Virus record (IMG/VR): IMGVR_UViG_3300010299_000005
Span: 1 to 52,729 of that record
DNA length: 52,729 bases
Origin: a virus
Direction: 5' to 3' (one strand)
Below, piece after piece: positions 10,177 through 52,001 of the stretch. The position numbers and the translations under genes were made by a program. Below the pieces are notes generated by a model, which made no database searches, was not told the DNA's origin, and worked only from the letters and a program-made list of their open reading frames with translations. Position 1 is the first letter of the stretch, and the number at the start of each line of letters is the position of its first letter.

Positions 10177-10184
10177 TATTTATG
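10177..10184 (-). promoter_or_regulatory. Late promoter motif CATAAATA before endolysin
   Basis: The octamer lies 5 bases from the ATG at 10171. It matches the T4 late core TATAAATA at 7 of 8 positions and has the same spacing as the other late genes in the window. Confidence 0.6.
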
Positions 10185-10193
10185 CATTATCAT

Positions 10194-10436
10194 CTATTTT
10201 GAATATATTTGACGCTCTAATTCTCGAAATCGCTTATCTGAGTGCCAGATTTCGTTTTCTGTTTGGACAATATATGCGCCTTCTTTAGTCAGTATTTTCT
10301 GCCCCTTTAGAGGGTTTAGAATAGACGGTTGATAAATGTTTAAAGAATTTTTGTTCTTCAATGAGCTCGTTTCGCAAGACGTCAGCATTATCAGCGCTAG
10401 TATTTGTACCAGCATTGCGTAACTTTTCAATTTCAT
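10194..10436 (-). CDS. Outer-membrane spanin candidate (Rz1-like lipoprotein)
   Basis: The first 20 residues form a lipoprotein signal: basic MKLK, a hydrophobic core (MLVQILALIM) and lipobox L18-T-S-C21. The mature part is about 60 residues. The gene begins inside the 3' part of the 91-aa frame at 10285-10560, in another reading frame, as Rz1 does in Rz. With the neighbouring amidase and holin candidate this fits the outer-membrane subunit of a two-component spanin, the last step of lysis in Gram-negative hosts. Proline content is low for an Rz1, so the assignment rests on lipobox and position. Confidence 0.7.
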   Translation of the reverse strand: MKLKSYAMLVQILALIMLTSCETSSLKNKNSLNIYQPSILNPLKGQKILTKEGAYIVQTENEIWHSDKRFRELERQIYSK

Positions 10437-10560
10437 TTTTTAATTCTTTCTGTTTTTTACGCGATTTCTGCAAGACATCATAATAAATGCTTTCTTTACG
10501 CAATGCAAGATACTGCGTAATTGCATCGAGTAAGCTCTTTACTAGCAGCGCCCAAGTCAC
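10285..10560 (-). CDS. Inner-membrane spanin candidate, coiled coil
   Basis: This 91-residue product starts at GTG (10560), overlapping the TGA of the upstream gene (GTGA). It opens with a mildly hydrophobic segment (WALLVKSLLDAITQYLAL, residues 3-20), followed by a long charged helix with heptad character (residues 25-48 and 60-75). The layout of membrane anchor plus coiled coil with an overlapping lipoprotein gene is that of an i-spanin. The anchor is weak, so it could instead be a cytoplasmic lysis-associated protein. Confidence 0.58.
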   Translation of the reverse strand: MTWALLVKSLLDAITQYLALRKESIYYDVLQKSRKKQKELKNEIEKLRNAGTNTSADNADVLRNELIEEQKFFKHLSTVYSKPSKGAENTD

Positions 10561-10757
10561 TCAGCCTTATCCTTTGCTTTACCAACATTAATAGCTAACA
10601 CTTCAATAACCTTATATACCTTGCTCCAAGTAGAGCCCGGCTTTGGAGTTGGAGTAACAGCGCATACTGCTGAAGCAACAGATATAACTGCAAAGACTAA
10701 TTGAACATAAGGATTTTCGCCAAATGTATTTGCAATATATAAAATTACGTCTTCCAT
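10557..10757 (-). CDS. Holin candidate, one membrane segment
   Basis: This 66-residue product has one strong hydrophobic segment (VQLVFAVISVASAVCAV, about residues 18-34), then TPTPKPGSTWSKVYKVIEVLAINVGKAKDKAE, a basic amphipathic tail. Small proteins with this pattern are often found beside phage lysis genes. Size, position at the head of the lysis cluster and its own late promoter motif (10762-10769) suggest a holin. A single membrane pass would be class III-like. The function is not proven by sequence. Confidence 0.62.
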   Translation of the reverse strand: MEDVILYIANTFGENPYVQLVFAVISVASAVCAVTPTPKPGSTWSKVYKVIEVLAINVGKAKDKAE

Positions 10758-10761
10758 AACA

Positions 10762-10769
10762 TATTTATT
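10762..10769 (-). promoter_or_regulatory. Late promoter motif AATAAATA before holin candidate
   Basis: The octamer is 4 bases from the ATG at 10757 and would drive the holin-spanin part of the lysis operon. Confidence 0.6.
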
Positions 10770-10787
10770 TATGCTATGGCGTGTAAT

Positions 10788-15845: not shown

Positions 15846-15853
15846 AATAAATA
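15846..15853 (+). promoter_or_regulatory. Late promoter motif AATAAATA before 15859
   Basis: The octamer lies 5 bases before the ATG at 15859, just after a terminator, so the gene is probably transcribed alone as a late gene. Confidence 0.6.
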
Positions 15854-15858: not shown

Positions 15859-16800
15859 ATGAAAATGATCAACGATCATACGTTCTTATATACCGAGGCA
15901 AATATCTATTCCCCTACATCACTTGAAGAGCAAATTAGATCACTCGCAGAAGTGAAGATGGTCAATGATAATCGCATTATAGATTGGCTTATAAAAGCTG
16001 AAAAGCGTTTTATTCAAAACCCATCAAACGATCAAAACAATATACGTTCAGGGTATATTAAAAAGCATGAAGCTGCGCCGGGAGAGCCTGCGTGGGCACA
16101 AAATACATTTGACGCTGTTAGCATTCCAAGTGAACGTGTTGAGTTTCTTAATCATGTAATTGATTATTTTAATGCAAAAAGTGACGATCCTGGCTTTCTT
16201 GATAAATTGTATAAAAAAACATATGACCAAGTGTATAATGTTGAAATTCCAGAATGGGAAAGACAGTTAAGAGCGAATGTAGGAAAGCATAAAAAGAATC
16301 CCTTGGATGAAGGTGTTGATTACAATGTTGTGAAAAGGTGGAATAATGGATTTAAAATGGTGCACTACAAGACAAAAAAAGCATGTAAATTTGAAGGACA
16401 GGCTGTGGGGCATTGTGCAAAAAGTTATAGCCCGAATAGACTATACAGCTTATATGATGAAAAAGATATGCCACACGCTACTCTTGAAGTAAGAGATGGC
16501 AAAGATGTACATCAAATTAAAGGCAAACAAAATGCTGCTCCTGTACCAAAATATCGGCCTTTTATTGTTGATTTTATTAAGTCTGTAAAATTTAATGTAG
16601 TGAAAGAAGGTAAAAATATTGGAATGGCATATTGGAATGGCAAATTTTACTTCAGAGATACGGACGAATTTAAGAAGCTATATAGAGATGAAGTTCTACC
16701 CGCTCAGCAAAAAGCAATTAAACGAGTAATGGATAGTATTCAAACTATAAATGAAAATTTTGCTTATATCCTCAATTATTCAGAATTATTAAACGAATAA
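15859..16800 (+). CDS. PcfJ-like domain protein, late
   Basis: This 313-residue protein has a central segment F-E-G-Q-A-V-G-H-C-A-K-S-Y (about residues 178-190), followed by LYSLYDEKDMPHATLEVRDG, VHQIKGKQNAAP and YRPFIVDFI. This is the PcfJ-type pattern (GxCVxSY...hATlEv...Q.kGk.N..p). PcfJ-like domains occur on plasmids and phages; their chemistry is not established. The last residues (YILNYSELLNE) are helical. The late promoter motif suggests a virion or late-acting protein. Confidence 0.7.
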   Translation: MKMINDHTFLYTEANIYSPTSLEEQIRSLAEVKMVNDNRIIDWLIKAEKRFIQNPSNDQNNIRSGYIKKHEAAPGEPAWAQNTFDAVSIPSERVEFLNHVIDYFNAKSDDPGFLDKLYKKTYDQVYNVEIPEWERQLRANVGKHKKNPLDEGVDYNVVKRWNNGFKMVHYKTKKACKFEGQAVGHCAKSYSPNRLYSLYDEKDMPHATLEVRDGKDVHQIKGKQNAAPVPKYRPFIVDFIKSVKFNVVKEGKNIGMAYWNGKFYFRDTDEFKKLYRDEVLPAQQKAIKRVMDSIQTINENFAYILNYSELLNE

Positions 16801-18220: not shown

Positions 18221-18228
18221 AATAAATA
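18221..18228 (+). promoter_or_regulatory. Late promoter motif AATAAATA before 18239
   Basis: The octamer lies 10 bases from the ATG at 18239, longer than the usual 4-6. The same spacing occurs before 26281. The large downstream gene is therefore probably late. Confidence 0.5.
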
Positions 18229-18238: not shown

Positions 18239-21148
18239 ATGTCTATACTGTTAGAGAGTCATACTAGAAAACGCGCTAGATTAGTAAGAGATGAACAATT
18301 TATTTCATTTTTTAATGCTGTTTCTCTTCGCGGTTTAACTGAAACTGAAACACCTGAAGCGTTTGTAGACGAGATAGCTGAAAAGTATGATCCAACATTT
18401 CTTGGAGCTAATTCTAATCAGGGATCTGATTTTATTGACTATATTATAGACAACTTACAAAACGGCATTATTAATTATAATGATGCTACCGCTCTTTTTT
18501 GTCAGCGTATTTTAAGGCATTATAGAGAATTGGTTACTAAGAATAAACTCACTAGTGAATTTATTAATAGATTTCGCAATATTACTGATTTGTCTGTTGA
18601 ACTAAAAAAGATATATAAAGAGAATAGTATTCTGTTAAAAGGGTCCGCGCATTTTAGAGCTCTATATAGTAAAATGCTTGAGTCTATGCAAGGAAGAGAT
18701 AATGTATCAATTGATTTCTTCTACAACGAAATTAAAAATAATTTTGATCCAACATCGGATGGAAGATACATGGGGTATATTGTTGATCAACTTGTTGATA
18801 AAGCAGATAGGCCCGCAGTTATTACATTGCAAGATGCTGAGTATGTAAAATTGCTTCTTAACGCGCATTTAACACAGGTAGAGAATAATAATAAAGATAT
18901 TAAGTATATTGATATTTTTAGATATAAAAAAATATTTCCAGATTTAGATAGAGAAATGAAGCAGTATCTGCCTAATTTTAATTTCGATAATAATAAGTGT
19001 CCAAATTTCGTTCAAACGCAGCAAAAATTTCTACCCGAACTAGGCGAGCCTATTTATCAAAATGTAAAGTTTCAATTTTATAAGATACCAAATAGAGCAG
19101 TGGCCGCTAAAGTAATTCCAAACCGTCGCAGATTTGATGAATGGATTCAAACACAACAATATAATGCTGGATATTGGTGCGTAGCGGATATGTATGATTA
19201 CTTTCCTACTTACATTGCTGTTGATGTGTATGGATTTTGTTCATACGCTATCGTACCTAAGTCTCGAGGTGGGTGGAGAGGTGAAATAAAAAATAGATTC
19301 AATTCGAAAGCAACATGTCTGACCATGAATAACAGTGATTATGACGCTCTGTATGATTTTTTTGTAAGCGACACAGTATCAGATGTTCTCGAACAATTTA
19401 AACACTGCTTTCAATTTACAGACGAGCCGTATTATGATGTGAGTAAATTTCTTGCGAGAGCACCTACGGTTGATGCAATGAATACATTGTTAGGAACTAA
19501 TGAAGAGACACTTTTTGATGTTATTTACAGATTCTTAAATGGATCCCCTAATACATATATAACGAAAATATTAGGAGCTGCACACACTCTTAAATCATTT
19601 GTTAGTGTTAATCCGCGAGGCTTTCCTCTTTTTAATTTTTTAAGAAATATCAACAGTCCAACTATTACAGTAGATTTATTGCGCGATACGCCTCTTGACC
19701 TTAAATATGCGGCAAGGTCTCAAGTAAAAGCAGTAAGTAGAAACCTTGCTAGTGTAATTAATAATTTTAAAGCCAACACCATTGAATCTTTTAATAGAAG
19801 ACCTGGCGATTACAAATACATAGTGGAATGTATATTAGGCAATCACGGTATTTCAGAAATACAAAGAAATAATCCTGCTTTAATTGAAAGTCTTGATACA
19901 CAGCTAAGCAAAAAAATTGCTGACGATACATTGCGTTTTGGTGGAGATTTGAAATATGTGTTCATAGAGCATACTCTAACAAATGAAACGGCAGTGTTAA
20001 AGAAGACACAGAAAGAATTAAAAAAATCAAGAGATTTTTATATTCGCACAGAAGCAATTGAAAGAGATATTGACTCGCAAATAGCAAATGATGTGCTGAT
20101 TCATATAGATGCTATCTCACAATATAACACGATGTTACACGTAGTTGAAAGTCTCTTTATACAAAAGTTAATCGATTCACAAATATCAGCAAATGCAAGA
20201 AATAATATTACCAAATATATTGCGGAACGCTTGAAGTGGATGATTTTAAATGAAAAAGATGTTAGAGGTTTTAACATTTCTTATACTATTAGCTCGTGGG
20301 CAGGTGCACATGAGGTTGAAGTAAAGGCAAAAATTTTAGGTATTTGTGCAAAAGGAATTCTCGAGAATCCTCGCCCATATTCAATTGCGAAGCGAAAAGG
20401 ATTTACCGTGATAAAAAAGGCGTTGTTTGTAGAGGAAGAGTATATTCAAAATATACGTAAAATAAACAATATATCTCCCGAAGCAGTATATTATGATGCT
20501 ACTGCAAATGTAAAAAGTCCAGCTCGTAGAGTTTATCCTGAATTGCTAAACTTTGTAGCTGCTAGTGATAACAGATTAACTAATGTTATTAGACATATAA
20601 AAAATTCATCAGATACTACCGAAACATCTGATAATCTTGTATCGACAATAGATGGATATACAGGTGAAAGTGAGCAACACAGAATTGGATTTACGCCTGA
20701 CTTAAAAATTAAGCTTAAAAGTGCACTTTTAAGTACAATATCCAAAACAAATATATCGGTGGAAAATTTAATATTAGCCACTGATGTAGATTATGGTGCT
20801 AAAATTAAATTTATAGAGCTTTATAATAAAATTATAAATGAATTAGAATTTAAGCCCGCGTATGCACTAGTGCAGCTAAGCAATGATGGACGAAGTATAA
20901 AAGAATCTCTTATAGTTGGCAAAATAAAAAATGATTCAACGATATGGATAAGCATGTTTAGTGATGAACCTATTAGACAATATAGAGATACTTACTATCG
21001 TACGTTTCCAACTGTAAATTCATTTTTGCTTAATTACGACATCAATACAAGCGTGCTCGAAAATAATAATTTATTTGATAACGTCAATACACGTAATGCA
21101 TTTAACAAATACTGCCTATACGTGGAAAAATTTAAAAATGATGATTGA
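18239..21148 (+). CDS. Large unknown late protein, 969 aa
   Basis: The product is mostly helical and polar, without signal peptide or membrane segments. At about residues 310-360 it has YWCVADMYDYFPTY, FCSYAIVPK and GWRGEIKNRF. The order W-C, short acidic loop, then a hydrophobic strand resembles a conserved region of other phage proteins and of the 811-aa protein at 26281. N- and C-terminal thirds are alpha-helical without recognised domains. Size, late promoter motif and single-gene unit suggest a virion-associated or ejected protein. Function not recognised. Confidence 0.78.
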   Translation: MSILLESHTRKRARLVRDEQFISFFNAVSLRGLTETETPEAFVDEIAEKYDPTFLGANSNQGSDFIDYIIDNLQNGIINYNDATALFCQRILRHYRELVTKNKLTSEFINRFRNITDLSVELKKIYKENSILLKGSAHFRALYSKMLESMQGRDNVSIDFFYNEIKNNFDPTSDGRYMGYIVDQLVDKADRPAVITLQDAEYVKLLLNAHLTQVENNNKDIKYIDIFRYKKIFPDLDREMKQYLPNFNFDNNKCPNFVQTQQKFLPELGEPIYQNVKFQFYKIPNRAVAAKVIPNRRRFDEWIQTQQYNAGYWCVADMYDYFPTYIAVDVYGFCSYAIVPKSRGGWRGEIKNRFNSKATCLTMNNSDYDALYDFFVSDTVSDVLEQFKHCFQFTDEPYYDVSKFLARAPTVDAMNTLLGTNEETLFDVIYRFLNGSPNTYITKILGAAHTLKSFVSVNPRGFPLFNFLRNINSPTITVDLLRDTPLDLKYAARSQVKAVSRNLASVINNFKANTIESFNRRPGDYKYIVECILGNHGISEIQRNNPALIESLDTQLSKKIADDTLRFGGDLKYVFIEHTLTNETAVLKKTQKELKKSRDFYIRTEAIERDIDSQIANDVLIHIDAISQYNTMLHVVESLFIQKLIDSQISANARNNITKYIAERLKWMILNEKDVRGFNISYTISSWAGAHEVEVKAKILGICAKGILENPRPYSIAKRKGFTVIKKALFVEEEYIQNIRKINNISPEAVYYDATANVKSPARRVYPELLNFVAASDNRLTNVIRHIKNSSDTTETSDNLVSTIDGYTGESEQHRIGFTPDLKIKLKSALLSTISKTNISVENLILATDVDYGAKIKFIELYNKIINELEFKPAYALVQLSNDGRSIKESLIVGKIKNDSTIWISMFSDEPIRQYRDTYYRTFPTVNSFLLNYDINTSVLENNNLFDNVNTRNAFNKYCLYVEKFKNDD

Positions 21149-24254: not shown

Positions 24255-24262
24255 AATAAATA
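24255..24262 (+). promoter_or_regulatory. Late promoter motif AATAAATA before 24269
   Basis: The octamer lies 6 bases before the ATG at 24269. A nearer ATG at 24265 gives only a nine-codon frame, so the regular spacing supports the start at 24269. Confidence 0.6.
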
Positions 24263-26262: not shown

Positions 26263-26270
26263 AATAAATA
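26263..26270 (+). promoter_or_regulatory. Late promoter motif AATAAATA before 26281
   Basis: The octamer is 10 bases from the ATG at 26281. The preceding 200 bases hold only the hairpin at 26122. Confidence 0.5.
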
Positions 26271-28785: not shown

Positions 28786-28792
28786 ATAAATA
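28785..28792 (+). promoter_or_regulatory. Late promoter motif AATAAATA before 28799
   Basis: The octamer is 6 bases before the ATG at 28799 and begins within the last base of the repeated fibre-gene end. Confidence 0.6.
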
Positions 28793-34953: not shown

Positions 34954-34957
34954 TTTT

Positions 34958-34965
34958 TATAAATA
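34958..34965 (+). promoter_or_regulatory. Late promoter motif TATAAATA before 34971
   Basis: An exact copy of the T4 late core, 5 bases from the ATG at 34971. Confidence 0.65.
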
Positions 34966-34970
34966 AATCT

Positions 34971-35486: not shown

Positions 35487-35487
35487 A

Positions 35488-35733: not shown

Positions 35734-36076
35734 TTGCAAGCATAGTGTCTGTATCTTCTTTATCTGTAAAGCACTGTGATACATCAACTATATATTGATT
35801 AGCAACAGCAATTTTACCGTGTGTCCACGCAGGCATTGTCTGTGTATTTTCTAGTGATTTTAATATTTCTTCTGCACGAGCAATAATTGATTTTAATCCG
35901 CCGCGCGCTATATCAATTTCATCTTGTTCATGATCTTCATCGACTTCTTCACAATTCTCATCTGGAACAGGTGATGTACTAAGCGGCATGCCTGACTCTT
36001 GATCAGCTTTCATTGTTATAGAATCTTGACTAACATAATTCTCCCAAATTTTTTCTAGTTCACCTGAATACTTCAT
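35708..36076 (-). CDS. Small conserved T4-like phage protein
   Basis: This 122-residue acidic protein ends with ARAEEILKSL, then MPAWTHGKIAVANQYIVDV. This resembles the (L)xxWVQSKIxxAxDYIxxV helix pattern of small proteins in cyanophages and pelagiphages, whose role I cannot name. It has its own late motif (36082-36089). Confidence 0.65.
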   Translation of the reverse strand: MKYSGELEKIWENYVSQDSITMKADQESGMPLSTSPVPDENCEEVDEDHEQDEIDIARGGLKSIIARAEEILKSLENTQTMPAWTHGKIAVANQYIVDVSQCFTDKEDTDTMLAINFVGMAS

Positions 36077-36081: not shown

Positions 36082-36089
36082 TATTTATT
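36082..36089 (-). promoter_or_regulatory. Late promoter motif AATAAATA before 35708-36076
   Basis: The octamer is 5 bases from the ATG at 36076 and overlaps the stop codon of the next gene upstream. Confidence 0.6.
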
Positions 36090-38295: not shown

Positions 38296-40106
38296 GAAAC
38301 TATAATTCTATCATTGAGAGTCTCAAATCCAGCAAAAAATGGAAACTTAAAGTTAGGAAATTTTAAGTTTTGCTGAGTAATAGATATATCTTCCGTATCA
38401 TAGTACGGATTCCACGATACAAAGCTAAAACCACTAACCTCATATACCGTATCTGCAGTTTGTCTAACTGTAGATACGCTCTCCACGCCCGGTATAGCTA
38501 GAACGTTCTTAGTTAATGTTGAAAAATCTAAAGAGCTTCCAAGTGTAATATTACTTATATCAAAAAAGTCTGCAATAGCATTATACACATTTGTTTTTAT
38601 TTGATTAAGAGATATTCTACTATTTGATGAGCGCTTAATGACCAGGTTTGTATTATCGCGAAAACTAACAGCAGCAGTCTCATCTTGCCCTTTGACAGCT
38701 AAATCTAATGCCATATAAACTGGATCGATAATCACCACCTCAATGTTTTGCATTTTTAGATTTTCAAGGCTAGTAACAATCAACTGTTTTAAAGAATCGG
38801 GTATAGAAAGCGGTATATTATTGCTTACAATAAAGTTGCGCGGTACCACAAATATATAAACATTATTAAAATCACACGAATCAGCAAATCTAATTTGACT
38901 AAGTAGAACTCTGCTATCGTCATTAGGACGCTCAATTCCAATATCGTAAAGATATTTAACAACACTGTCTATATATTCAGTATTACTCATAACAGAGATA
39001 TCATGAATTAGATTAGAAAAATTTCGTCTGACATATATATCAAAGTCGTTTGCTGTTACAGCGCGGTTCTGTGCTGCAAAAACTTTAGGTGCATTGGCAC
39101 GTATTTCTTCTACTGTTTCTAATGATCGTGGATTGGTCGATCTGTTGTTATTTGTAATAAGGACGTAGTTTAGATTATCTTGCGATATTAATGGAGTTGT
39201 TGAATAGACATCACTTGAAATTAGGCGAAACTGTGGCGTTGTAAATCTAACAAATTTCGAATTATTAAATGTAAGTGCGCTTACCACACCTCTTGAACCC
39301 GTGCTTTGCAGGTAATATATTGTGATTTGATCTCCTTCATTTAATTTCTTACCCGTAATACCATCGCCAAACTTGAGCTCATATCTACCACCTTCATTCA
39401 AACGCTTTTCAAAAACTTTAGAGTTTGAATTTTGATCAAACAAACTCGGAACAACCTTCCACTCACTCCATACCTCCGTATTAACATTTTTAATAAACAC
39501 AAATATGTTATTATAGTCAATAAATTCATCTGCATTAGTTATAATACTATCCACCGCAATTGTTAATGTTTCAAATTCCTGCCCAAGCGCAGTCTGTAGT
39601 GGATATTCTTTAAATTGCCCTTGATATAATAGATTCTGCTGTCCGATCGACTCAAGTGTCTCAGAAGAAGTAGTTGTTTTTTCAAAATATACATCTGATG
39701 CTAATGAATACGTTATACCGTTTGATATAACGTATGAAAAACGAGGAATAACATAATTATCAACTGCAAGATTTGATTGCGCTTGTGCAGTAAAAGAGAG
39801 TATAGATGTTTGTGATCCGTTAGGATTATAGCCAATTAAATTTACAATTTTATTTAAATTTTCATATAATGTTGCTTGATTAAAATACGCCTCGGACGCT
39901 TGATTGTTGAGATAAAATAATGTTACATGGTACGCATAAGCAATTATATCAATTAAAGACGAAAGATTGCTTCCTTCAAAAGCTTGATCAGTAAAAATAT
40001 TACTTTCTTTTAATCGACTTATAATGAGGCTCTTCATGCTTACAGCATCAAACGCTGCATAAGCATCTTTTGAGAGAGTAAATTCTGTAAAGTTTTCTGC
40101 GGACAT
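38292..40106 (-). CDS. gp6: Baseplate wedge protein, gp6-like (Baseplate_J family)
   Basis: At 604 residues it is close to T4 gp6. The N-terminal helical part includes NLSSLIDIIAYAYHVTLFYLNNQASEAYFNQA, a typical gp6/Baseplate_J signature, and the middle has LKFGDGITGKKLNEGDQI and AVTANDFDIYVRRNFS. It forms the clamp joining baseplate wedges. It lies 5 bases after the gp25-like gene, as in many T4-like phages. Confidence 0.9.
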   Translation of the reverse strand: MSAENFTEFTLSKDAYAAFDAVSMKSLIISRLKESNIFTDQAFEGSNLSSLIDIIAYAYHVTLFYLNNQASEAYFNQATLYENLNKIVNLIGYNPNGSQTSILSFTAQAQSNLAVDNYVIPRFSYVISNGITYSLASDVYFEKTTTSSETLESIGQQNLLYQGQFKEYPLQTALGQEFETLTIAVDSIITNADEFIDYNNIFVFIKNVNTEVWSEWKVVPSLFDQNSNSKVFEKRLNEGGRYELKFGDGITGKKLNEGDQITIYYLQSTGSRGVVSALTFNNSKFVRFTTPQFRLISSDVYSTTPLISQDNLNYVLITNNNRSTNPRSLETVEEIRANAPKVFAAQNRAVTANDFDIYVRRNFSNLIHDISVMSNTEYIDSVVKYLYDIGIERPNDDSRVLLSQIRFADSCDFNNVYIFVVPRNFIVSNNIPLSIPDSLKQLIVTSLENLKMQNIEVVIIDPVYMALDLAVKGQDETAAVSFRDNTNLVIKRSSNSRISLNQIKTNVYNAIADFFDISNITLGSSLDFSTLTKNVLAIPGVESVSTVRQTADTVYEVSGFSFVSWNPYYDTEDISITQQNLKFPNFKFPFFAGFETLNDRIIVS

Positions 40107-40111: not shown

Positions 40112-40582
40112 TTAAAAGACAAGATAACCTTCACTATTCAAATAAAAATTAAGAATATAATCATCTACTTGAAGAAATGGCACGCCTATAACTATATTTA
40201 TCTCATATTGATTGTTATCGATATCTGGAATAACACTTAAAGATACTATAGTGACTCTTGGTTCAAATTTTTTAATATTAGTTTGTATCTTATCTTTAAT
40301 AATAGCCGCAGTAGATGTTGTAGTTGGTAAAAACAAATAATCTCTTATATCCATACCAAACTCTGGATTTAAAATTTTATCACCCGGACTAGTTAAAAAC
40401 AAATTTATAATACTATTACGAATTGCGGCAAGATCATAATCTGCTACAATATCATACTGTTGTGTATTTTTTTGAGCCTCGTTAGTAACTAGATTTTGTG
40501 TAGATAAATCTAGCTGTAAATCTGAAAAAACAAATTTTTCTCCTACCTCCTTTTTAGGAAGAACTAAGTTTACATTTGACAT
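40112..40582 (-). CDS. gp25: Baseplate wedge protein, gp25-like
   Basis: This 156-residue protein contains the GPW/gp25 pattern: AIRNSIINLFLTSPGDKILNPEFG then MDIRDYLFLP and a closing beta region. gp25-like proteins start sheath assembly at the baseplate. It is first in an operon with gp6-like and PKD genes, under a late motif at 40588-40595. Confidence 0.92.
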   Translation of the reverse strand: MSNVNLVLPKKEVGEKFVFSDLQLDLSTQNLVTNEAQKNTQQYDIVADYDLAAIRNSIINLFLTSPGDKILNPEFGMDIRDYLFLPTTTSTAAIIKDKIQTNIKKFEPRVTIVSLSVIPDIDNNQYEINIVIGVPFLQVDDYILNFYLNSEGYLVF

Positions 40583-40587: not shown

Positions 40588-40595
40588 TATTTATT
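40588..40595 (-). promoter_or_regulatory. Late promoter motif for gp25/gp6 operon
   Basis: AATAAATA, 5 bases from the ATG at 40582. It lies back to back with a plus-strand copy 10 bases away. Confidence 0.62.
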
Positions 40596-40605
40596 CACTT
40601 TTCTG

Positions 40606-40613
40606 AATAAATA
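40606..40613 (+). promoter_or_regulatory. Late promoter motif before 40620
   Basis: AATAAATA, 6 bases from the ATG at 40620; divergent partner of 40588-40595. Confidence 0.62.
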
Positions 40614-40619: not shown

Positions 40620-41186
40620 ATGAATAGCGCATTTAATACTTTACTAGAAAATACACTCTCAAGATTTCAGCGAGGCGGTTTCTTAGTGGGAGATTATGTT
40701 AAGTTTTGTAGCGGATATAGCACAAAAGATAGCTTTAAAGACCTCACAACTTCAATACAAGACGCGGTGAAAGAGGTGGAGAAGATGTCTGAAAATATGA
40801 ATCTTCGAATTATTAATATCAAAAACAAATATCCTTCCTCACAGCCAGGTAATGAAAATAATACTAATGGATGTGTTAGTGTTGATATTGGTCTTGATTA
40901 TGGTGGTGGTAGATATCACTGTGCTCTTACCGTACCTGCCGATATATTAGAACGTATCGACTATGGTATTAACTATGCGCCACTGCCTGACGCTATTAGA
41001 CGTGATAATATGGTAACACTTAAACCAGAGCCACTCAAAAGTGTTTCTGAAGATGAAGAAATGATTATTCAGACTCGCAAAACACAGCAGGGAGGTAAGC
41101 TTGCTAAATCTGATACCACTCTATCTAATAAGAATGTGAAGATTCCTAGCGAGACGGCTAAGTATGTCAAGTACTTTAAGAATTAA
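40620..41186 (+). CDS. Conserved structural-type protein (GGFLVGDYV)
   Basis: This 188-residue protein begins with a helix and R-F-Q-R-G-G-F-L-V-G-D-Y-V-K-F (near residue 17). LRIINIKNKYPSSQPG and VDIGLDYGGGRYH follow, then INYAPLPDAIRRDN. I recall this order from conserved proteins of marine T4-like phages, encoded among structural genes, without an assigned role. A late promoter motif precedes it. Confidence 0.75.
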   Translation: MNSAFNTLLENTLSRFQRGGFLVGDYVKFCSGYSTKDSFKDLTTSIQDAVKEVEKMSENMNLRIINIKNKYPSSQPGNENNTNGCVSVDIGLDYGGGRYHCALTVPADILERIDYGINYAPLPDAIRRDNMVTLKPEPLKSVSEDEEMIIQTRKTQQGGKLAKSDTTLSNKNVKIPSETAKYVKYFKN

Positions 41187-41193
41187 TTCTTAA
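41176..41193. other. 18-bp palindrome at convergent gene ends
   Basis: TTAAGAATTAATTCTTAA is perfectly self-complementary and contains the stop codons of both convergent genes (41183 and 41186). No GC stem is present, so it is a poor terminator. Confidence 0.6.
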
Positions 41194-42124
41194 TAGCCTG
41201 AGAGATATTGATCATGCAGTGATATGCATTTATCTCTTGATCTACAGCAAATGCGCACCTGTAAACGTGTTCACCTAATATACAAATTAACAATTGCTTG
41301 ACATTATTATTATAATTCCCCTCATACACACACTGAAGCATATTTTTTAACAAAGCACTATAATTATTAGAAAAATCTTGTTCGTGTGTAATTAAGAATT
41401 TTCGTATTTTAACTACATCTTCTGTTTCGAATAGGAGGTGTAATAGTTTTTGAGCTACACTATATTCAGTATCCGTTATCGATGAACTTTCCAGTACGCC
41501 ATCAACGCAAAATTTTTGCAACGTGTTAATTGTTTTACGTATATCTGGAAAACTAGCACGAACAATAAGCACAAGTTGCTTTTCTTGTTCTTGTGTTTTT
41601 AAAGAGATATTCTCTTGCTTTAATATATAAACGCACCGCTCTAGTATGCTAGAGATACTAGTTTTAAATTGAATATTTTGACAGCGACTCTGAAGTGCAG
41701 GAATTATTTTGTGTAGGTAATTTGCTGTTAGAATAAAGCGGGTATAGCGTGCGTATTCTTCCATAACATTACGCAGTGCACGTTGTCCTTGCTCAGAGAA
41801 ACCATCACATTCGTCTAATAAAACAACCTTTATTTTACCGTCTAAGCTCTTCGTCTGTGCAAACGTATTAATTTTACTACGGACAGTCTCGATACCGTTT
41901 TCATCAGATGCATTAATGTATAATCTTTGACAATTTAAAATGTCGTCACAGATAATACGAGCTAGACACGTCTTACCTATACCAGAATTGCCTGATAGAA
42001 GTATATTGGGTATTTCTTTTGTCTGTGTGTATTGTAGAATTATTTTTCTAGATTCGTCATCAATTACCATTTCTGATAATGTTTTGGGACGATACTTTTC
42101 TATCCAAAGCGAATCAAAATTCAT
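41183..42124 (-). CDS. gp44: Sliding clamp loader ATPase subunit, gp44-like
   Basis: This 313-residue AAA+ protein has WIEKYRPKTLSEMV at the start, Walker A GNSGIGKT (about 45-52), the DExx box LLDECDGF (near 101), LTANYLHKIIPAL and the arginine-finger motif S-R-C near 147. It loads the sliding clamp on primed DNA. It follows the dUTPase gene by 3 bases on the same strand. The pair forms a replication island inside the structural block. Confidence 0.93.
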   Translation of the reverse strand: MNFDSLWIEKYRPKTLSEMVIDDESRKIILQYTQTKEIPNILLSGNSGIGKTCLARIICDDILNCQRLYINASDENGIETVRSKINTFAQTKSLDGKIKVVLLDECDGFSEQGQRALRNVMEEYARYTRFILTANYLHKIIPALQSRCQNIQFKTSISSILERCVYILKQENISLKTQEQEKQLVLIVRASFPDIRKTINTLQKFCVDGVLESSSITDTEYSVAQKLLHLLFETEDVVKIRKFLITHEQDFSNNYSALLKNMLQCVYEGNYNNNVKQLLICILGEHVYRCAFAVDQEINAYHCMINISQAIKN

Positions 42125-42127: not shown

Positions 42128-42598
42128 TTAATTTCCAGAACTACCGAAGCCTCTATCACCTCTCGCAGATGTTACCTGCTCACCTTCTTCGATTACAACT
42201 TTGTAATTCTTGTAAATTACAAATTGTGCAATTCGGTCACCACGTGTTACTGCGTAATCTTTATCAGTAAAATTATACAATTTAATGCCGGCATCACCTC
42301 TATAACCATTATCGATAATTCCGGGGTGAGGAAGAATACCGTGCTTAAATCCTAAACCGCTTCTCCCCTCTACCCTTACCCAATAACCAGGTGTAATATG
42401 AGCGAACTTTAACCCCACACCTACAACAGCAGAACCACGCGCTGGAATCACTTTCGATTCAATACAATAAACATCAAATCCAGTATCAGATTCGTGATTT
42501 TTTGTTGGAAGTATAGCTAATGTATCGGTACGTTCAAATTTTATTACTGCATCTATCTTTACCACTTCATTTATATCTTTATTTTCAAATATATTCAT
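42128..42598 (-). CDS. dut: dUTPase
   Basis: This 156-residue enzyme has all five trimeric dUTPase motifs: SDTGFDVYC (I), EGRSGLGFKHG (II), PGIIDNGYRGD (III, catalytic Asp and Tyr region), RGDRIAQFV (IV) and RGDRGFGSSG (V). It splits dUTP to dUMP and pyrophosphate, limiting uracil in DNA and supplying dTMP. It shares a divergent gap with a late gene at 42653 but has no late motif itself, which fits early expression. Confidence 0.95.
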   Translation of the reverse strand: MNIFENKDINEVVKIDAVIKFERTDTLAILPTKNHESDTGFDVYCIESKVIPARGSAVVGVGLKFAHITPGYWVRVEGRSGLGFKHGILPHPGIIDNGYRGDAGIKLYNFTDKDYAVTRGDRIAQFVIYKNYKVVIEEGEQVTSARGDRGFGSSGN

Positions 42599-42638
42599 AT
42601 TACAATATATTCTTTCTGTTTAAAACTTCCAGAAAATA

Positions 42639-42646
42639 TATAAATA
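42639..42646 (+). promoter_or_regulatory. Late promoter motif TATAAATA before 42653
   Basis: An exact T4 late core 6 bases before the ATG at 42653. Confidence 0.65.
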
Positions 42647-42652: not shown

Positions 42653-43123
42653 ATGCAAGATAATACTACAGAAGAGGCTGTAAATAGCATTCTTAGTCAA
42701 TTAAAGGATGTTAATGTCCCTGAGAAAAAAGCTAAGCAGAATAAAGAAAAGATAGACCCTGAAAAACTAGAGCAATTTATTATAGATAAGTCTAGCGATC
42801 TTATTACAAAAAGTCTAGAAGTTTTTGATGAATATAAAGATATATTATCATCCGCGCCATCTGAAGAATCTGCAGAAGCACTCTCCAATTTAATTAATGC
42901 TGCTACCTCTGCTATTGAAACTCTTAATAAAGTACTTGCAGTTAATAAGAAAACAAATACCAGTGTTAAATTAAAAACAATGGATATTGAGTCTAAGCAG
43001 CTGATAAATCAGCGTGACAACATTACCAAATTGGTGATGACACGATCTCAACTAATGGAATTATTAGAGGAGCCAGAGGAAGAAGCAGTGGATGTTGAGG
43101 TAGAAGAGTCAAAAAAAACTTAA
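42653..43123 (+). CDS. Putative terminase small subunit, gp16-like
   Basis: This 156-residue, mostly helical protein has ESAEALSNLINAATSAIETL then NKVLAVNKKTNTSVKLKTMDIESKQL. This resembles the central coiled-coil region of T4-like small terminase subunits (LAxLIxAxTSSIETLNKI...KMDIExK). Both ends are charged and probably disordered. If correct it would recognise DNA for packaging. A scaffold or other helical structural protein is possible. No large terminase is in the window. It is convergent with the 43120 gene. Confidence 0.55.
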   Translation: MQDNTTEEAVNSILSQLKDVNVPEKKAKQNKEKIDPEKLEQFIIDKSSDLITKSLEVFDEYKDILSSAPSEESAEALSNLINAATSAIETLNKVLAVNKKTNTSVKLKTMDIESKQLINQRDNITKLVMTRSQLMELLEEPEEEAVDVEVEESKKT

Positions 43124-46025: not shown

Positions 46026-47081
46026 TTAAGAGGATTTGTTCCAATTTTCTAACATCATATTTGCAGCATTGATAGTGAGAGATGAAAAGCGCATTTCAAC
46101 ATTATAAGCATCTGGCATAATTGCTGTTATTTGTGGACTTAAACCAACACTGGATGGCATGGGTATGGTGACATTACGCCTATTACCAATAAACTTTACA
46201 CTCATAGACTCTAAATATCCAAAACGTATATAACTCACACCAGGTACATTTATTTCATAAATTTTTGGCAATTCAACAATTGATTTAGTGACACGCTGCG
46301 GTATATTTTGAAACGATAGGAGCCACAGTAATTGATAATTCTTAACTGCTGATTTAAAATTAAGTGTATTGAGGAGTGGGAAAGAAAATGTTATGGTTTG
46401 TTTGCTACTTGCTTGAATATCGTAAAGCTTTGGACGCTCTACATATTGTCCAGGTGATACTAATAATTTTGAAATACTAGATGCAATATCTGTAAATTTT
46501 GATAGCGCACCAATTGGATCTGCAAAATTGCCTAATGGTGCTGATATATCAGAATAAGATGATTGAATATCATTTGTTGCTTTATTATCAAAATATGGCA
46601 ATAGATATTCAAAGCCGGTTGGTTCATCTAATGAATAGAGTCCGTCGTATGGCTTAAGCCAATTATCACTAGAAGAACTCGGCTGCGGTATACTAATATC
46701 ATCACCACTAAAAAACTCTTTTACAGCATCAATTAAATTTTTTAATCTAGTGAATTCTCCCGCTGTATTAAAAAAAGCCGACATATAGTATCCAATAGCT
46801 CTCCAAACCGTACTATCAGGCACTCTATATTCTTTTAAATGCCCGTAAGGAATTAATGATCTATCACTTTCTTGCCATGTTGGATAGGGTGTTGTCGACC
46901 AATCAAATGATCCATACACATCTATTTTTTCAGTTGAAGATGATCTGCTAAGTCTTTTTGCATATACGTTCTTACTACCATATTGTGCACGCCTAGCAGC
47001 GCTGCCCTCATAGCCTGGTCGTGCTGAATAATATTTGTTTCCAGCTATGCTATTGCTATCGCTGATGTAAAAGAGACTCAT
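46026..47081 (-). CDS. Tail-tube/baseplate junction protein, gp48/gp54-like
   Basis: This 351-residue protein has a C-terminal tube-like half: ITFSFPLLNTLNFKSAVKNY, GVSYIRFGYLESMSVKFIG and MPDAYNVEMRFSSLTINA, as in gp48/gp54 proteins that begin tail tube growth on the hub. The N-terminal half is polar and likely wraps the hub. Late motif at 47087-47094. Confidence 0.75.
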   Translation of the reverse strand: MSLFYISDSNSIAGNKYYSARPGYEGSAARRAQYGSKNVYAKRLSRSSSTEKIDVYGSFDWSTTPYPTWQESDRSLIPYGHLKEYRVPDSTVWRAIGYYMSAFFNTAGEFTRLKNLIDAVKEFFSGDDISIPQPSSSSDNWLKPYDGLYSLDEPTGFEYLLPYFDNKATNDIQSSYSDISAPLGNFADPIGALSKFTDIASSISKLLVSPGQYVERPKLYDIQASSKQTITFSFPLLNTLNFKSAVKNYQLLWLLSFQNIPQRVTKSIVELPKIYEINVPGVSYIRFGYLESMSVKFIGNRRNVTIPMPSSVGLSPQITAIMPDAYNVEMRFSSLTINAANMMLENWNKSS

Positions 47082-47086: not shown

Positions 47087-47094
47087 TATTTATG
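47087..47094 (-). promoter_or_regulatory. Late promoter motif CATAAATA before 46026-47081
   Basis: The octamer is 5 bases from the ATG at 47081 and overlaps the end of the tape measure gene. Confidence 0.58.
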
Positions 47095-49195
47095 AGTATG
47101 TGCTTTTGATCATTTCATATTTCTGTACACTTGTGCTCTGAAGTGGCATATTATTAAATGTCAGTTGAGGAGCTCCGGTAAAATTAGTTCTATTACCGGT
47201 TATTAATGTAGATATGTTATATAGATGCTTATTTGCTTCAATAGCCAACTCTATCTGTTTAGCACCGATTGATTGTTGTAGATTAATTAATTTATTCAAT
47301 AGAGATGAAAATATTTGATTGTCTTGCTGTGTTTGAACTCTAATCGTTTGAGCTACTTCACTAATACCCACACTTTTATTAAAGCCTAGTATGCCTGAGC
47401 TGCCATTTAAAATTCTATCAATTGACTCCACAACACGCTCACTCGAATCAATTATATCATCTAAAATATCGACAAGTCCATCAAGAGCGTCAAATGTCAT
47501 ATTTGAAAGACTTTGTATAGATGTGCTCAAATTTTGTAGTGCTGTTATTTTAGCGCTATCTAGGTCATTGAGAAAGCTGCCGATACGTTCAAGTGGGTTG
47601 GAGCTAAAGAAGCTTGTTAATCCGTCTAACAGATTGCTAAAGACCATTTGAGTTAATGCTGATGTAAGGGCTTTTATTGCATTGGCAGCTTCAAATATTT
47701 TACCGATATCAGCACTTGCTGTAAATTCCTGTATGTTTTCAAATATGCGTTTGAAAAGATCTGGTACACTTGAGACCAAGGTATATAATTTATCAACGAT
47801 ATTAGTAATAAATTGATCACCAGTATTAATTATTTTTTCTATAAAGTCTTTTGCGTTACTTGATATATCCTTTATAAATTCAAATATAGAATTTAAAGCA
47901 GCGACAGCACTTGAAGCAATGTTTGATATTAAATTACTTACACTTGAAACAATTGATGCAATAGTTGTAAGTGCAGAATTTAAAGCAGTGACAGCACCTA
48001 AAACGAAGTCTGATATTAAATTACTTACACTTGAAACAATTGACGCAATAGTTGTAAGTGCGGAATTTAAAGCAGTGACAGCACCTAAAACGATGTCTGA
48101 TATTAAATTACTTACACTTGAAACAATTGACGTAATAGACGTGAGCAAACCTTGTATTAAATTACTTACACTTGAAACAATTGACGTAATAGACGTGAGC
48201 AAACCTTGTATTAAATTATCGAGCAAATTAATAATAGGTATTAAAATATTAGAAATATTATCTATGAGATAAGTTATTGCTTCAAGTACACCAATAACAA
48301 TTTCTTTTATAGATGAAATCAGGATTTTTAAATAATTTATTTGCTCTATGATTACATCTTTAATTAAATGAACGATTTCAAGTAGAAATTCTCTTATTTC
48401 GGGTGAACTAAAAAATTCAACTATAAAATCAAATAAAGAGGAAAATATAGGTTTTAGTTTGACTATTCCACTAATATAAGCATCAAATAATTTAATAACA
48501 GCATCTGTAAGTGCCTCGATTAATGGAATGATGAAAGGAAGAAGTGAAATTAATGTTTCGACAAATAAACTAACAAAATCACGTATTATAGGCATAATAT
48601 CCTTAAACATATCTCTTAATAAATAAAAAGTGCCTACAACAATTGCAATAGCTGAGGATATTGCAAGAGCTACACCTATAATAGTTCCAAGCGCGATTAG
48701 AATACCTGGTACTGCTTTAGGTAACGCGGTAAGAGCACCTATTACAGCCATTAATCCACTTCCAGCAGCGACACCAGCAGCACCACCACCTAAACCAAGT
48801 AATTTACTTAAAAATCCTTCCTTTTCTTCTTCGGGCATTTGTACACTGAACGAGCCCTTTAAACTTTCAACAACACTATCATCTATGCCAGTTATACGTA
48901 CAGACTGTACATTAACAGTTTCATTTGTAAGTATATCTTCCCGCTCATTTACTGGCTTAAGTTTGTTAAATAAGTCAGTAAATTCTTCTTCAAAAATATC
49001 TGCTGTTTTTCTTACCTTGTTACGCTCTTTAGCAGTAAGATCATCGCCCTGATTGTGCTGTGTTTCAGTATCAATTACACTTGAGATAGTGCCATCAACC
49101 GGTAAACCACGGACAATTTCTCCTATTTCATTTGTGAACTTATCAAGTGTCTCTGAAAGCTCTTTTATAATATTCTGGATGTCCTCGGGGTTCAT
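47090..49195 (-). CDS. Tail tape measure protein
   Basis: This 701-residue protein is almost wholly helical. The N-terminal 130 residues are charged, then a long hydrophobic region (about 140-300) with a glycine-rich start (GGGAAGVAAGSG) and several membrane-like segments (AVPGILIALGTIIGVALAISSAIAIVVGTF). The middle (about 325-420) is made of tandem repeats of 29 and 18 residues. Tape measures set tail length and can enter the host membrane at DNA entry. Position between tube, hub and assembly genes fits. Confidence 0.88.
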   Translation of the reverse strand: MNPEDIQNIIKELSETLDKFTNEIGEIVRGLPVDGTISSVIDTETQHNQGDDLTAKERNKVRKTADIFEEEFTDLFNKLKPVNEREDILTNETVNVQSVRITGIDDSVVESLKGSFSVQMPEEEKEGFLSKLLGLGGGAAGVAAGSGLMAVIGALTALPKAVPGILIALGTIIGVALAISSAIAIVVGTFYLLRDMFKDIMPIIRDFVSLFVETLISLLPFIIPLIEALTDAVIKLFDAYISGIVKLKPIFSSLFDFIVEFFSSPEIREFLLEIVHLIKDVIIEQINYLKILISSIKEIVIGVLEAITYLIDNISNILIPIINLLDNLIQGLLTSITSIVSSVSNLIQGLLTSITSIVSSVSNLISDIVLGAVTALNSALTTIASIVSSVSNLISDFVLGAVTALNSALTTIASIVSSVSNLISNIASSAVAALNSIFEFIKDISSNAKDFIEKIINTGDQFITNIVDKLYTLVSSVPDLFKRIFENIQEFTASADIGKIFEAANAIKALTSALTQMVFSNLLDGLTSFFSSNPLERIGSFLNDLDSAKITALQNLSTSIQSLSNMTFDALDGLVDILDDIIDSSERVVESIDRILNGSSGILGFNKSVGISEVAQTIRVQTQQDNQIFSSLLNKLINLQQSIGAKQIELAIEANKHLYNISTLITGNRTNFTGAPQLTFNNMPLQSTSVQKYEMIKSTYS
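47937..48218 (-). repeat. Tandem repeats in tape measure: two of 87 bp and two of 54 bp
   Basis: Units begin at 47937 and 48024 (87 bp, 29 residues) and at 48111 and 48165 (54 bp, 18 residues). Both unit types share SVSNLI at one end and T-x-I-x-S-I-V at the other. Confidence 0.9.
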
Positions 49196-49201: not shown

Positions 49202-49209
49202 TATTTATC
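49202..49209 (-). promoter_or_regulatory. Late promoter motif GATAAATA before tape measure
   Basis: The octamer lies 6 bases from the ATG at 49195. Confidence 0.58.
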
Positions 49210-49214: not shown

Positions 49215-49886
49215 TTATAGAGGCTTGGTCGTAAGCTTCATATATTTTTCATGTATGTTTTTTGCATGTATTAAAGCTTTGTTATTAATAGTAACTGGCA
49301 GGTGCTGAATTATCGGAATAAGATCCCCACATTTATTTTGTTGAAAATTTACTTTTGTGCCTGTATTTACTATTTCAATTTCTTCTGTATACTTTATAAT
49401 TTGTAAATTATACATTTGTGCAATATCACTAACATCGCTCTGGCTAAAATAAGAATTAACAGCAATATCGCGTTTAATTGTTGGTATAGTAAAATGAGCA
49501 CGAATCCCATTACATTCAATGTGGCTCTGTGTAGGTTCTTTTTGCTTTTTGATATAATCTATACCACTTGTAATATTCTTTTTTTCAGCAGCTTCAATTT
49601 CAGAATCATTTAATCTATATTGCAAAATAATTGCTTCTCTATCGATAACATACAGTTCAACCTCTTCAATGCAATTTTCCAATAAAATTTTATTAACACA
49701 ATTGAGCGCTTCAATGGTATTGGATTTAACACCATCGCCAATAATAAAGCTAATAAGATTTTGTTGTTGAAGCGCGTTCATTGGTTTGAACTTTACTTTT
49801 CTTTTAGCGCTCGGCACCCATATATCTACTACAGCAGATTTATTAATTTCTTCTAACTGACCAATAAAATTTTGATACTCACTCAT
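49215..49886 (-). CDS. Baseplate hub assembly protein, gp26-like
   Basis: This 223-residue protein begins with V-V-D-I-W-V-P-S-A-K-R-K-V-K-F-K-P-M-N-A-L-Q-Q-Q, a signature of the T4 gp26-type baseplate family, followed by helical and mixed regions. It overlaps the next gene upstream by 8 bases. In T4 such proteins assist hub assembly. Its place before the tape measure also suits a tail assembly chaperone. Confidence 0.7.
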   Translation of the reverse strand: MSEYQNFIGQLEEINKSAVVDIWVPSAKRKVKFKPMNALQQQNLISFIIGDGVKSNTIEALNCVNKILLENCIEEVELYVIDREAIILQYRLNDSEIEAAEKKNITSGIDYIKKQKEPTQSHIECNGIRAHFTIPTIKRDIAVNSYFSQSDVSDIAQMYNLQIIKYTEEIEIVNTGTKVNFQQNKCGDLIPIIQHLPVTINNKALIHAKNIHEKYMKLTTKPL

Positions 49887-50742
49887 TTGGTATATTTAGA
49901 TTGGGGTTAAGTTTCGTCAACTGCTTTTTCTGTTCTTCAACTTCATCAACATACATATTAAGTAAAAGAATGCCCTCTGCAGGTGCAATACTCATTATAT
50001 ACTCAGCTTCTATATGTGCTTTGCTACACAACACATATATATTTTTCAAACAACTAACCAAATCATCTTTAAATATTAACTTAATAAATTCAAACATAGA
50101 TTGATTATAGGGATTAATAGCAATCTCAGATATATTCAAACTTTCATTTTTTGAGCTAATGCAAATGTTATTTTTTTGACGCAGCGCTATAAGGTTGTAT
50201 ATTTTTATTGTTATGGAAGAATCTAGCTTAACAAGAATGTTATCTTTCTTCACATCATCAAGTAAATTAAAATCAACACATTCATTACTTCCTGTGATTC
50301 GAATTGATTTTATTATTCTATGCAGACATTCATTCTGATTTATAATAAAATTACGAGGCGTGTCTATTGTAATTTCAAATATATTATTCGCTATCACCTC
50401 ATTTAGTTCGTAGAGATGTGAGGTGTTGTTTATCTTTTCTAGAATACTATCAATTGTAATGTTGTAAGTTACATCAAGAGAATTTACAAATTTTAAAGTA
50501 TCACCACAACTAATACTGCGTATCTTAAGCAGGCACACAGCTTTATCGATTATATTCAAATCTTCTTCAATGCCTATAACATGTGTTTGAATAATATTAT
50601 TTAAGTATCTACATGTCGCTTTATTGTTTTGCGATATTATAAATTTCTGCAAATCAAAAAAGGTTTTATTACTTATTTGTTTGATTTGAACAGTTTTTTT
50701 GGATATCGGCAAAAACTGCTCGATATAAAAATCATTATTCAT
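49879..50742 (-). CDS. Second gp26/gp51-type hub assembly protein
   Basis: This 287-residue protein begins F-L-P-I-S-K-K-T-V-Q-I-K-Q-I-S-N-K-T-F-F-D-L-Q-K-F, the same order of strands and helix as the gp26-type gene next to it. The C-terminus (ISEIAINPYNQSMFEFIKLIF, then LLLNMYVDEVEEQKKQL) looks like a tail-assembly chaperone end. The two may be diverged paralogues. It overlaps both neighbours by 4-8 bases. Confidence 0.65.
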   Translation of the reverse strand: MNNDFYIEQFLPISKKTVQIKQISNKTFFDLQKFIISQNNKATCRYLNNIIQTHVIGIEEDLNIIDKAVCLLKIRSISCGDTLKFVNSLDVTYNITIDSILEKINNTSHLYELNEVIANNIFEITIDTPRNFIINQNECLHRIIKSIRITGSNECVDFNLLDDVKKDNILVKLDSSITIKIYNLIALRQKNNICISSKNESLNISEIAINPYNQSMFEFIKLIFKDDLVSCLKNIYVLCSKAHIEAEYIMSIAPAEGILLLNMYVDEVEEQKKQLTKLNPNLNIPNE

Positions 50743-51428
50743 TGTGAAAATTGTGTTGTGCGATTATCAAATACCCATCCCACAGAATTCAACTTAACAG
50801 CACTATCTTCATCATATGTGTAATTATGATCACCTATTTCAACAGGAGCAACATTGTAAAAATTATAAATCTTGCGTATTGGTCTAAAAGCTTGAGTATT
50901 ATATGGTGCAGATCTTGCATGTCTGTATCTTGAAAAGTGTATTATCTGCATGTGTGGACACTTTACCCTCTCGTTTTCATTTTCGTACGCAAAAAAACCC
51001 TTATACGAACATGATATCATCCAAGGTCTAAGTACTGTTTCAACAAAATCAACATTGGTCTCTTTAAAGCGAGTACCGATACGCTGTCCAGCAAAAGGTG
51101 TTCTTTTTCCTGCCATTCCTGGTACATTAAAGCCTCCGAACGGCACAGAAGCTTCTTCTTGGCTAAATCCATCGCCTGGGAGGGTGACATTATCTATAAA
51201 AAAGCAACCTATTTCTTCTGAAAATTGAACCTTGCTATTAATTGCTTTTTCGTAATTAGTAGAGAAGTTCCAATCTCTACCAGATACAAGAGATTCATAA
51301 TCTCTAACTTTTTGTATTATAGGTGTGGGAAAACTATGTATTAATAATATCCACTGTGAGTTAAGTGAAAGATTATATTCCCACTCATCAAATAAGGAAA
51401 GATATGTGTCTCTAGGTGAATTTGCCAC
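50739..51428 (-). CDS. Tube-fold baseplate/tail tube initiator protein
   Basis: This 229-residue protein has a GTG start at 51428 and contains NVTLPGDGFSQEEA, KETNVDFVETVLRPWMISCSYKGFFAY and a C-terminal VGWVFDNRTTQ. These are the outer-strand and helix elements of the tube fold. It lies next to the tail tube gene and probably forms the first ring below it, or joins tube and baseplate. Confidence 0.72.
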   Translation of the reverse strand: MANSPRDTYLSLFDEWEYNLSLNSQWILLIHSFPTPIIQKVRDYESLVSGRDWNFSTNYEKAINSKVQFSEEIGCFFIDNVTLPGDGFSQEEASVPFGGFNVPGMAGKRTPFAGQRIGTRFKETNVDFVETVLRPWMISCSYKGFFAYENENERVKCPHMQIIHFSRYRHARSAPYNTQAFRPIRKIYNFYNVAPVEIGDHNYTYDEDSAVKLNSVGWVFDNRTTQFSQ

Positions 51429-51433
51429 CTATA

Positions 51434-51441
51434 TATTTATT
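51434..51441 (-). promoter_or_regulatory. Late promoter motif AATAAATA before GTG-start gene
   Basis: The octamer is 5 bases from the GTG at 51428. That the spacing is kept with a GTG start supports that start choice. Confidence 0.6.
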
Positions 51442-51988
51442 AGAGTGGTGCGTTCTCTTCAAAGAAATGATACGCAATGGTCGTATCAAAATATACAGGT
51501 TGTCCCGTACCTTCTGCCATTGAATATTGAATCTTGCCTACATTACGAATATTAGCACCTACAAGCTTAAAGATCGTTACCGGTTCAAGATTCTTATCAA
51601 CTTGAGCAAGTGTGATTGTACTGCCGCGACCCGCTATGTTGTAATCACCTGTACTTGTTGCATCATCAAATACTCTACGTGATTCAGCAAGAAATTTATT
51701 TCTTAATTGTGAGTTAGCGTCACAATAAAAATTAATATTATATGCTTCACTACCTGGATATCTAACTGTTCCAGCGATATTAAACGGTAGTCCCATAAAT
51801 TTTGATTGCACATTAACATTTTCGCGAGAAGGTAATTCTGCAGTGCGTGCGTAGATCAATTCACCTTCGTTAAATGCTGCACCACCAGCAAAATTAATAC
51901 TTAGAACACGAAAGAGAAAATCACGTGAAAATTCTCTTGCAATCGCGCGATCATAAAAATTACCAATTGTTTGTAGCGTCTGGGCCAT
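51440..51988 (-). CDS. gp19: Tail tube protein, gp19-like
   Basis: This 182-residue protein starts with a helix (FYDRAIAREFSRDFLFRVLS), then TAELPSRENVNVQSKFMGLPFNIAG, VRYPGSEAYNINFYCD and a final YSMAEGTGQPVYFDTTIAYHFF. This is the T4 gp19-type order. It stacks in rings to form the inner tail tube. A near-match late motif is at 51994-52001. Confidence 0.9.
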   Translation of the reverse strand: MAQTLQTIGNFYDRAIAREFSRDFLFRVLSINFAGGAAFNEGELIYARTAELPSRENVNVQSKFMGLPFNIAGTVRYPGSEAYNINFYCDANSQLRNKFLAESRRVFDDATSTGDYNIAGRGSTITLAQVDKNLEPVTIFKLVGANIRNVGKIQYSMAEGTGQPVYFDTTIAYHFFEENAPL

Positions 51989-51993
51989 ATAAT

Positions 51994-52001
51994 TATTTAA
52001 T
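51994..52001 (-). promoter_or_regulatory. Late promoter-like motif ATTAAATA before tail tube gene
   Basis: One mismatch to NATAAATA, 5 bases from the ATG at 51988. Confidence 0.45.

Follow-up and report, generated by a model that had tools for sequence, protein, structure and literature searches.

The T4 late-promoter system is classical, with the octamer TATAAATA driving late genes in a gp55/gp33/gp45-dependent manner. The first base of the T4 octamer lies at −13 (PMC2988020), and the octamer thus spans to −6. A form with degenerate first base, NATAAATA, is the known late promoter of cyanophages (PMC2984593), and in bacteria, genes transcribed without a leader are conventionally recognised by a TA-rich signal some 10 bases ahead of the start codon (TA-led genes; Zheng et al. 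2011, PMC3160421). This analysis concerned a T4-type octamer (any base followed by ATAAATA) lying just before start codons in IMG/VR record IMGVR_UViG_3300010299_000005, a 52,729-base virus fragment from an uncultured T4-type phage (the whole of which is referred to as the window) with start codons predicted by a gene caller. The octamer was very probably a T4-type late promoter set directly onto the start codon, so that late messages would be leaderless or nearly so and would carry no Shine-Dalgarno (SD) site.

The window lineage and T4 shared the octamer, its presumed −13 to −6 position, a purine at the sixth base after it (octamer+6), restriction to late genes, and gp55 (here encoded by relatives of the window), but T4 had the octamer 12 to 35 bases before the start and SD sites at most genes, while the window lineage had an offset of 5 and no SD site, together with no detected gp33 and a gp55 devoid of a recognisable clamp-binding tail. 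The cyanophages S-PM2 and Syn9 had the degenerate first base in common with the lineage, but their promoters were leadered and some genes had SD sites. The Pelagibacter phages HTVC008M and Mosig had some late genes at gap 5 (gap being the number of bases between octamer and start codon) like the window lineage but, unlike it, had other late genes with leaders and commonly had SD sites. TA-led genes were alike in their TA-rich signal but were described for cellular genomes, whereas the present lineage was viral and combined a phage-specific promoter class with a second one.

A tail tube query retrieved relatives at 51-78% identity, including G001 (224.7 kb), G002 (116.2 kb), and G003 (203.8 kb). 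An earlier sequence-only reading of the window had listed 15 exact octamers plus a one-mismatch copy at 51994-52001, and all of them were present with the sixteen gaps as listed. Its claim of a fixed gap of 4 to 6 bases stood for most copies (13 exact copies at gaps 4-6) and failed for two, at 18222 and 26264, with gap 10. Octamers preceding start codons in the window were as follows:

10177-10184, minus strand: late octamer CATAAATA, gap 5, before 9401-10171 (endolysin/amidase); gap 5 in the G001 and G006 orthologues
10762-10773, minus strand: two overlapping octamers, at gaps 4 and 8, upstream of the small-protein gene 10557-10757
15846-15853, plus strand: late octamer AATAAATA, gap 5, before 15859-16800 (PcfJ-like match)
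18221-18228, plus strand: late octamer, gap 10, before 18239-21148; orthologues at gap 5
24255-24262, plus strand: late octamer, gap 6, before 24269-26056
26263-26270, plus strand: late octamer, gap 10, before 26281-28716; best match in G001 at gap 5
28785-28792, plus strand: late octamer, gap 6, before 28799-31636
34958-34965, plus strand: late octamer TATAAATA, gap 5, before 34971-35486
36082-36089, minus strand: late octamer, gap 5, before 35708-36076; gap 5 in G001 and G002
40588-40595, minus strand: late octamer, gap 5, before 40112-40582 (gp25 baseplate wedge)
40606-40613, plus strand: late octamer, gap 6, before 40620-41186; gap 6 in G001, G002, and G003
42639-42646, plus strand: late octamer, gap 6, before 42653-43123; divergent to dut
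47087-47094, minus strand: late octamer, gap 5, before 46026-47081; gap 5 in G001, G002, and G003
49202-49209, minus strand: late octamer GATAAATA, gap 6, before 47090-49195 (tape measure)
49893-49900, minus strand: one-mismatch octamer TCTAAATA, gap 6, before 49215-49886; NCTAAATA enriched here in relatives
51434-51441, minus strand: late octamer, gap 5, before the GTG of 50739-51428; GTG and gap 5 in G001, G002, and G003
51994-52001, minus strand: one-mismatch octamer ATTAAATA, gap 5, before 51440-51988 (gp19 tail tube); NTTAAATA enriched here in relatives

Near-consensus copies such as TCTAAATA, 6 bases before 49886, thus accompanied the exact ones, and both NCTAAATA and NTTAAATA were enriched at the octamer position across relatives. 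The octamers at 40588-40613, in the space separating gp25 from 40620-41186, formed a divergent pair with about ten bases between them.

The octamer signal was one of placement, not abundance: ATAAATA occurred 26 times in the window (30.6 ± 5.7 expected), a count not above chance, while 15 copies lay 4 to 8 bases before predicted starts (including the overlapping second copy at 10766 and one before an internal ATG at 23134), compared to 0.8 expected from same-composition permutations and 0.35 under uniform placement (P about 7e-20), and the spacing spectrum had its maximum at 5-6. The permutation control was inflated by one-base-shifted motif copies (AATAAAT and TAAATAA), and reverse-complement and orthologue tests were therefore added. 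The reverse complement of ATAAATA was found nowhere in the window at 4 to 8 bases before starts. The octamer was present in both members of 85 of 117 orthologue pairs, 68 of which had the same gap, with about half of the spacer bases differing between same-gap members; for the tape measure gene, gap 6 was kept in G001 and G003, with GG before the ATG.

Octamer spacing was compared among T4, cyanophages, relatives, and the window by the same gene caller and procedure. The plot of octamer distance to start codons that had been proposed from the sequence alone gave a clear maximum, which lay at 5-6 for the window and at 5 for relatives. Seven related contigs (up to about 225 kb) displayed a sharp peak at 5, with 26 of 121 octamers in G003, 21 of 59 in G001, and 19 of 42 in G002 at exactly this distance and few beyond 10. 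T4 had no octamer below 12 bases from a start (mode 27-28), and the octamers of S-PM2 and Syn9 were mostly located 20-38 bases before starts. HTVC008M and Mosig were bimodal, with eight and six octamers at exactly 5, respectively; the gap-5 sites of HTVC008M (KC465899) included 16005-16019, 18914-18928, 19444-19458, 31120-31134, and 49748-49762, its gap-5 late genes being those for the tape measure, gp2, gp48, gp25, and a CsgF-like protein, and no comment on gap-5 octamers of Pelagibacter phages was found in the searchable literature. As a separate observation, Campylobacter phage CC_R7 (PQ092953) carried ATAAATATACTAAATG repeatedly (at 21877, 77923, 166435, and 34132) with gap 6, possibly a repeated promoter-start cassette.

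The start-site geometry was assessed through base composition downstream of the octamer. In leadered promoters, octamer+6 was a purine in 79% (T4), 82% (S-PM2/Syn9), and 89% (HTVC008M/Mosig/Melnitz) of cases, having the highest or equal-highest purine content among the first ten bases; at gap 5, octamer+6 is the A of the ATG, which would therefore be +1. Pyrimidine at −1 followed by purine at +1 is the usual transcription start preference. The non-redundant gap-5 promoters of the clade had a pyrimidine at −1 in 69 of 83 cases, and a purine at −1 was found in 16 of 25 gap-6 promoters versus 14 of 83 gap-5 promoters (P 1.4e-5); the start preference thus tracked the octamer rather than the ATG. 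From this bias and the geometry, we infer a transcription start six bases downstream of the octamer. The argument of the sequence-only reading, that a core at −13 to −6 as in T4 puts +1 on the ATG, accordingly held up against both the published position (PMC2988020) and the octamer+6 purine bias.

A second promoter class was detected by an unsupervised motif search of 804 upstream regions, which recovered ATAAATA at −12 (69 versus 2.0 expected), GTTGA at −35 (24 versus 1.9 expected), and TATAAT-like hexamers near −12. TTGA at −34 was found 21 times in G001 (2.4 expected) and was flat in T4, and no such signal at the start-codon offset was seen in T4, S-PM2, or Syn9. These TTGA/TATAAT signals, exemplified by TTGACA-16-TATAAT-6-ATG at G001 23267, look like ordinary sigma70-type promoters with +1 on or near the ATG, at gaps ranging over 4-9. 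They preceded gp43 (polymerase) and nrdA in G001 and G003, and gp61 (primase) in G001, G002, and G003. The dUTPase gene dut lacked the octamer, as had been claimed, and had TATATT 5 bases before its ATG instead. Signals of this class in the window were as follows:

8774-8802, minus strand: sigma70-type TTGATT-17-TATTAT, gap 5, before 8331-8768 (polynucleotide kinase domain)
9377-9404, minus strand: sigma70-type TTGAAA-16-TAAATT, gap 5, before 8799-9371
42604-42609, minus strand: putative −10-like TATATT, gap 5, before dut; no clear −35

The two classes were divided by gene function: with orthologues classed as early or late from their T4 and HTVC008M homologues, the octamer preceded 16 of 35 late orthologues and none of 34 early ones, and the sigma70 signal preceded 7 of 34 early orthologues and none of 35 late ones, in agreement with the earlier statement that the octamer precedes structural and lysis genes and not early-type genes. 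Tightly operon-internal genes (start within 5 bases of the upstream gene's end) made up 12 of 205 signal-bearing genes versus 217 of 518 signal-less genes (P 1e-24). Divergent gene pairs were not enriched among signal-bearing genes, and that comparison was therefore uninformative. Within the clade, 0-10% of starts had an SD-like tetramer upstream, a frequency no higher than that of the control stretch, and the near absence of SD sites claimed for the window was reproduced (2% of starts versus 8% in the control stretch); the corresponding values were 66% in T4 and 55-58% in HTVC008M and Mosig (up to 68% with Melnitz). Two marks of TA-led genes, a −10-type element lying some 10 bp upstream of the start codon and the lack of SD sites, were found here.

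The late-transcription machinery was sought in the window and its relatives. gp55 was encoded by two near-complete relatives, G001 and G003 (E 1.5e-26 and 8e-25, respectively); the gp55 of the lineage was short (149-160 amino acids; L147:10001-10480 and L149:10001-10480), and its sigma region 2 segment was conserved. In the gp55 tree, eight lineage phages, all with SD at background, formed one group (support 100/100), and most phages outside this group showed SD above background. gp44 was present in G001, G002, G003, and the window. The open reading frame (ORF) after gp32 is a likely gp45 candidate, since among the fifty matches listed for its structural model (pLDDT 40) all were sliding clamps or clamp-containing complexes (PCNA, bacterial beta clamps, and 9-1-1).

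The proposed course of expression is as follows: (i) RNA polymerase with phage gp55 would bind the octamer, as the motif, the function split, and gp55 suggest; (ii) transcription would begin at octamer+6, i.e., on the first base of the start codon at gap 5, one base before it at gap 6 (1-nucleotide leader), and a few bases before it at gaps 7-10 (about 5 nucleotides at gap 10); (iii) messages of promoter-proximal genes would be translated by leaderless initiation at the 5'-terminal AUG; (iv) downstream genes, given their tight packing, would mostly be translated by coupling to the preceding gene; and (v) early genes would use host-sigma70-type promoters, likewise with +1 on the ATG, as the second motif suggests. 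The leaderless interpretation first put forward from the octamers gained support from the gap kept in relatives, the lack of SD sites, the gp55 gene, and the second promoter class at the same offset. Several observations weigh against it. About one-third to one-half of non-internal genes carried neither signal under the rules used here, and the major capsid gene had no octamer and AAGGA before its start (G001 83912-85387 and G003 34572-36041). gp55 was not contained in the window, and the clade gp55 had no recognisable hydrophobic clamp-binding C-terminal tail. gp33 (phrog_254), found in all six comparison isolates, had no significant match in G001, G002, or G003, where divergence may have hidden it, and neighbouring small ORFs gave no match to it. 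gp45 was not found by family or profile searches, including one with the T4 clamp family (phrog_223), and its candidate depends on a model of low confidence. The search for gp55, gp33, and gp45 proposed at the outset therefore succeeded for gp55, failed for gp33, and yielded a candidate for gp45. The unrecognisable gp55 tail and the undetected gp33 suggest an altered link between replication and late transcription.

The octamer could instead be a non-SD translation-initiation element within messages that start further upstream, the alternative named in the sequence-only reading, and a fixed distance to the start codon without SD sites would suit such an element. It is, nevertheless, decidedly improbable: a different sequence (TTGA...TATAAT) stood at the same offset before early genes, signals were scarce at tight operon-internal genes, which need translation too, the octamer matched the T4 late promoter and was confined to late genes, and the −1/+1 bases obeyed an RNA polymerase start-site rule that shifted with the gap. 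Two unrelated DNA signals with only their start-codon distance in common fit leaderless transcription, not a translation signal. A T4-type late promoter followed by a short leader of a few bases, with the start not exactly at octamer+6, would accommodate gaps 6-10 and the gaps 4-9 of the sigma70 class, yet it is unlikely, as a purine at octamer+6 was the rule in leadered relatives and at gap 5 the pyrimidine at −1 and purine at +1 agree with transcription beginning at the A of the ATG.

The pattern might also be produced by AT-rich intergenic DNA combined with the picking of ATGs beside octamers, since the genomes had 36-41% GC and ATAAATA was no commoner than chance in the window. T4, with its 35% GC, however, had no octamer at 4-8 by the same procedure, the reverse complement was lacking at that distance in the window, and the gap was kept gene by gene in orthologues; these controls leave such an artefact next to no credibility, and it was rejected. 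The favoured reading remained that of a T4-type late promoter placed with +1 on or near the start codon.

The window carried a T4-type gene set (gp44, gp25, gp6, gp19, tape measure, and gp5-like lysozyme) plus dUTPase and endolysin:

9401-10171, minus strand: endolysin/amidase
38292-40106: gp6 wedge protein
40112-40582, minus strand: gp25 baseplate wedge
41183-42124, minus strand: gp44 clamp loader, beginning 3 bases downstream of dut, operon-internal, with no promoter signal of its own
42128-42598, minus strand: dut (dUTPase)
47090-49195, minus strand: tape measure
51440-51988, minus strand: gp19 tail tube
52020-52562: gp5-like lysozyme

The closest isolate matches were distant (gp6 about 25% and gp44 34-36% identity), and, as queries for relatives, gp6 and gp44 retrieved only an identical contig from another assembly. 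Host searches gave no relative among genome contigs with the sugar-nucleotide enzyme of the window and, with the gp55 alignment, only distant T4-type contigs in mixed metagenome-assembled genome bins. G001 contained a block of 23 predicted tRNA genes plus a transfer-messenger RNA candidate (about 62000-72000, L043; and 58613-59056, L042). The DNA polymerase gene gp43 consisted of two reading frames, separated by about 700 to 2800 bases, in G003 (85622-87118 and 89947-90909) and G002 (110345-111340 and 112026-113288), possibly split by an intron or homing insertion.

Leaderless phage messages are, to our knowledge, known mainly as single cases, e.g., lambda cI, and the searchable literature, most subscription journals lying outside it, yielded no account of T4-type phages transcribing late genes without leaders. 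The lineage appears to have abandoned leaders. It is somewhat more probable than its opposite that a whole T4-type lineage does without 5' leaders and SD sites, with host sigma70 used early and gp55 used late, a 13-base element setting both the transcription start and the start codon, promoter-proximal genes translated by leaderless initiation in a host where it is efficient, and gp33 and the gp55 clamp-binding tail lost or remodelled. Gene callers can use the octamer/start-codon offset to place starts in these phages, and cultured Pelagibacter phages, with gap-5 beside leadered late promoters, offer a ready test system. If the leaderless reading holds, the host should be one that initiates efficiently on leaderless messages, and the lineage-wide switch of a well-studied regulon from leadered, SD-driven to leaderless expression would be a natural experiment in the evolution of translation initiation.

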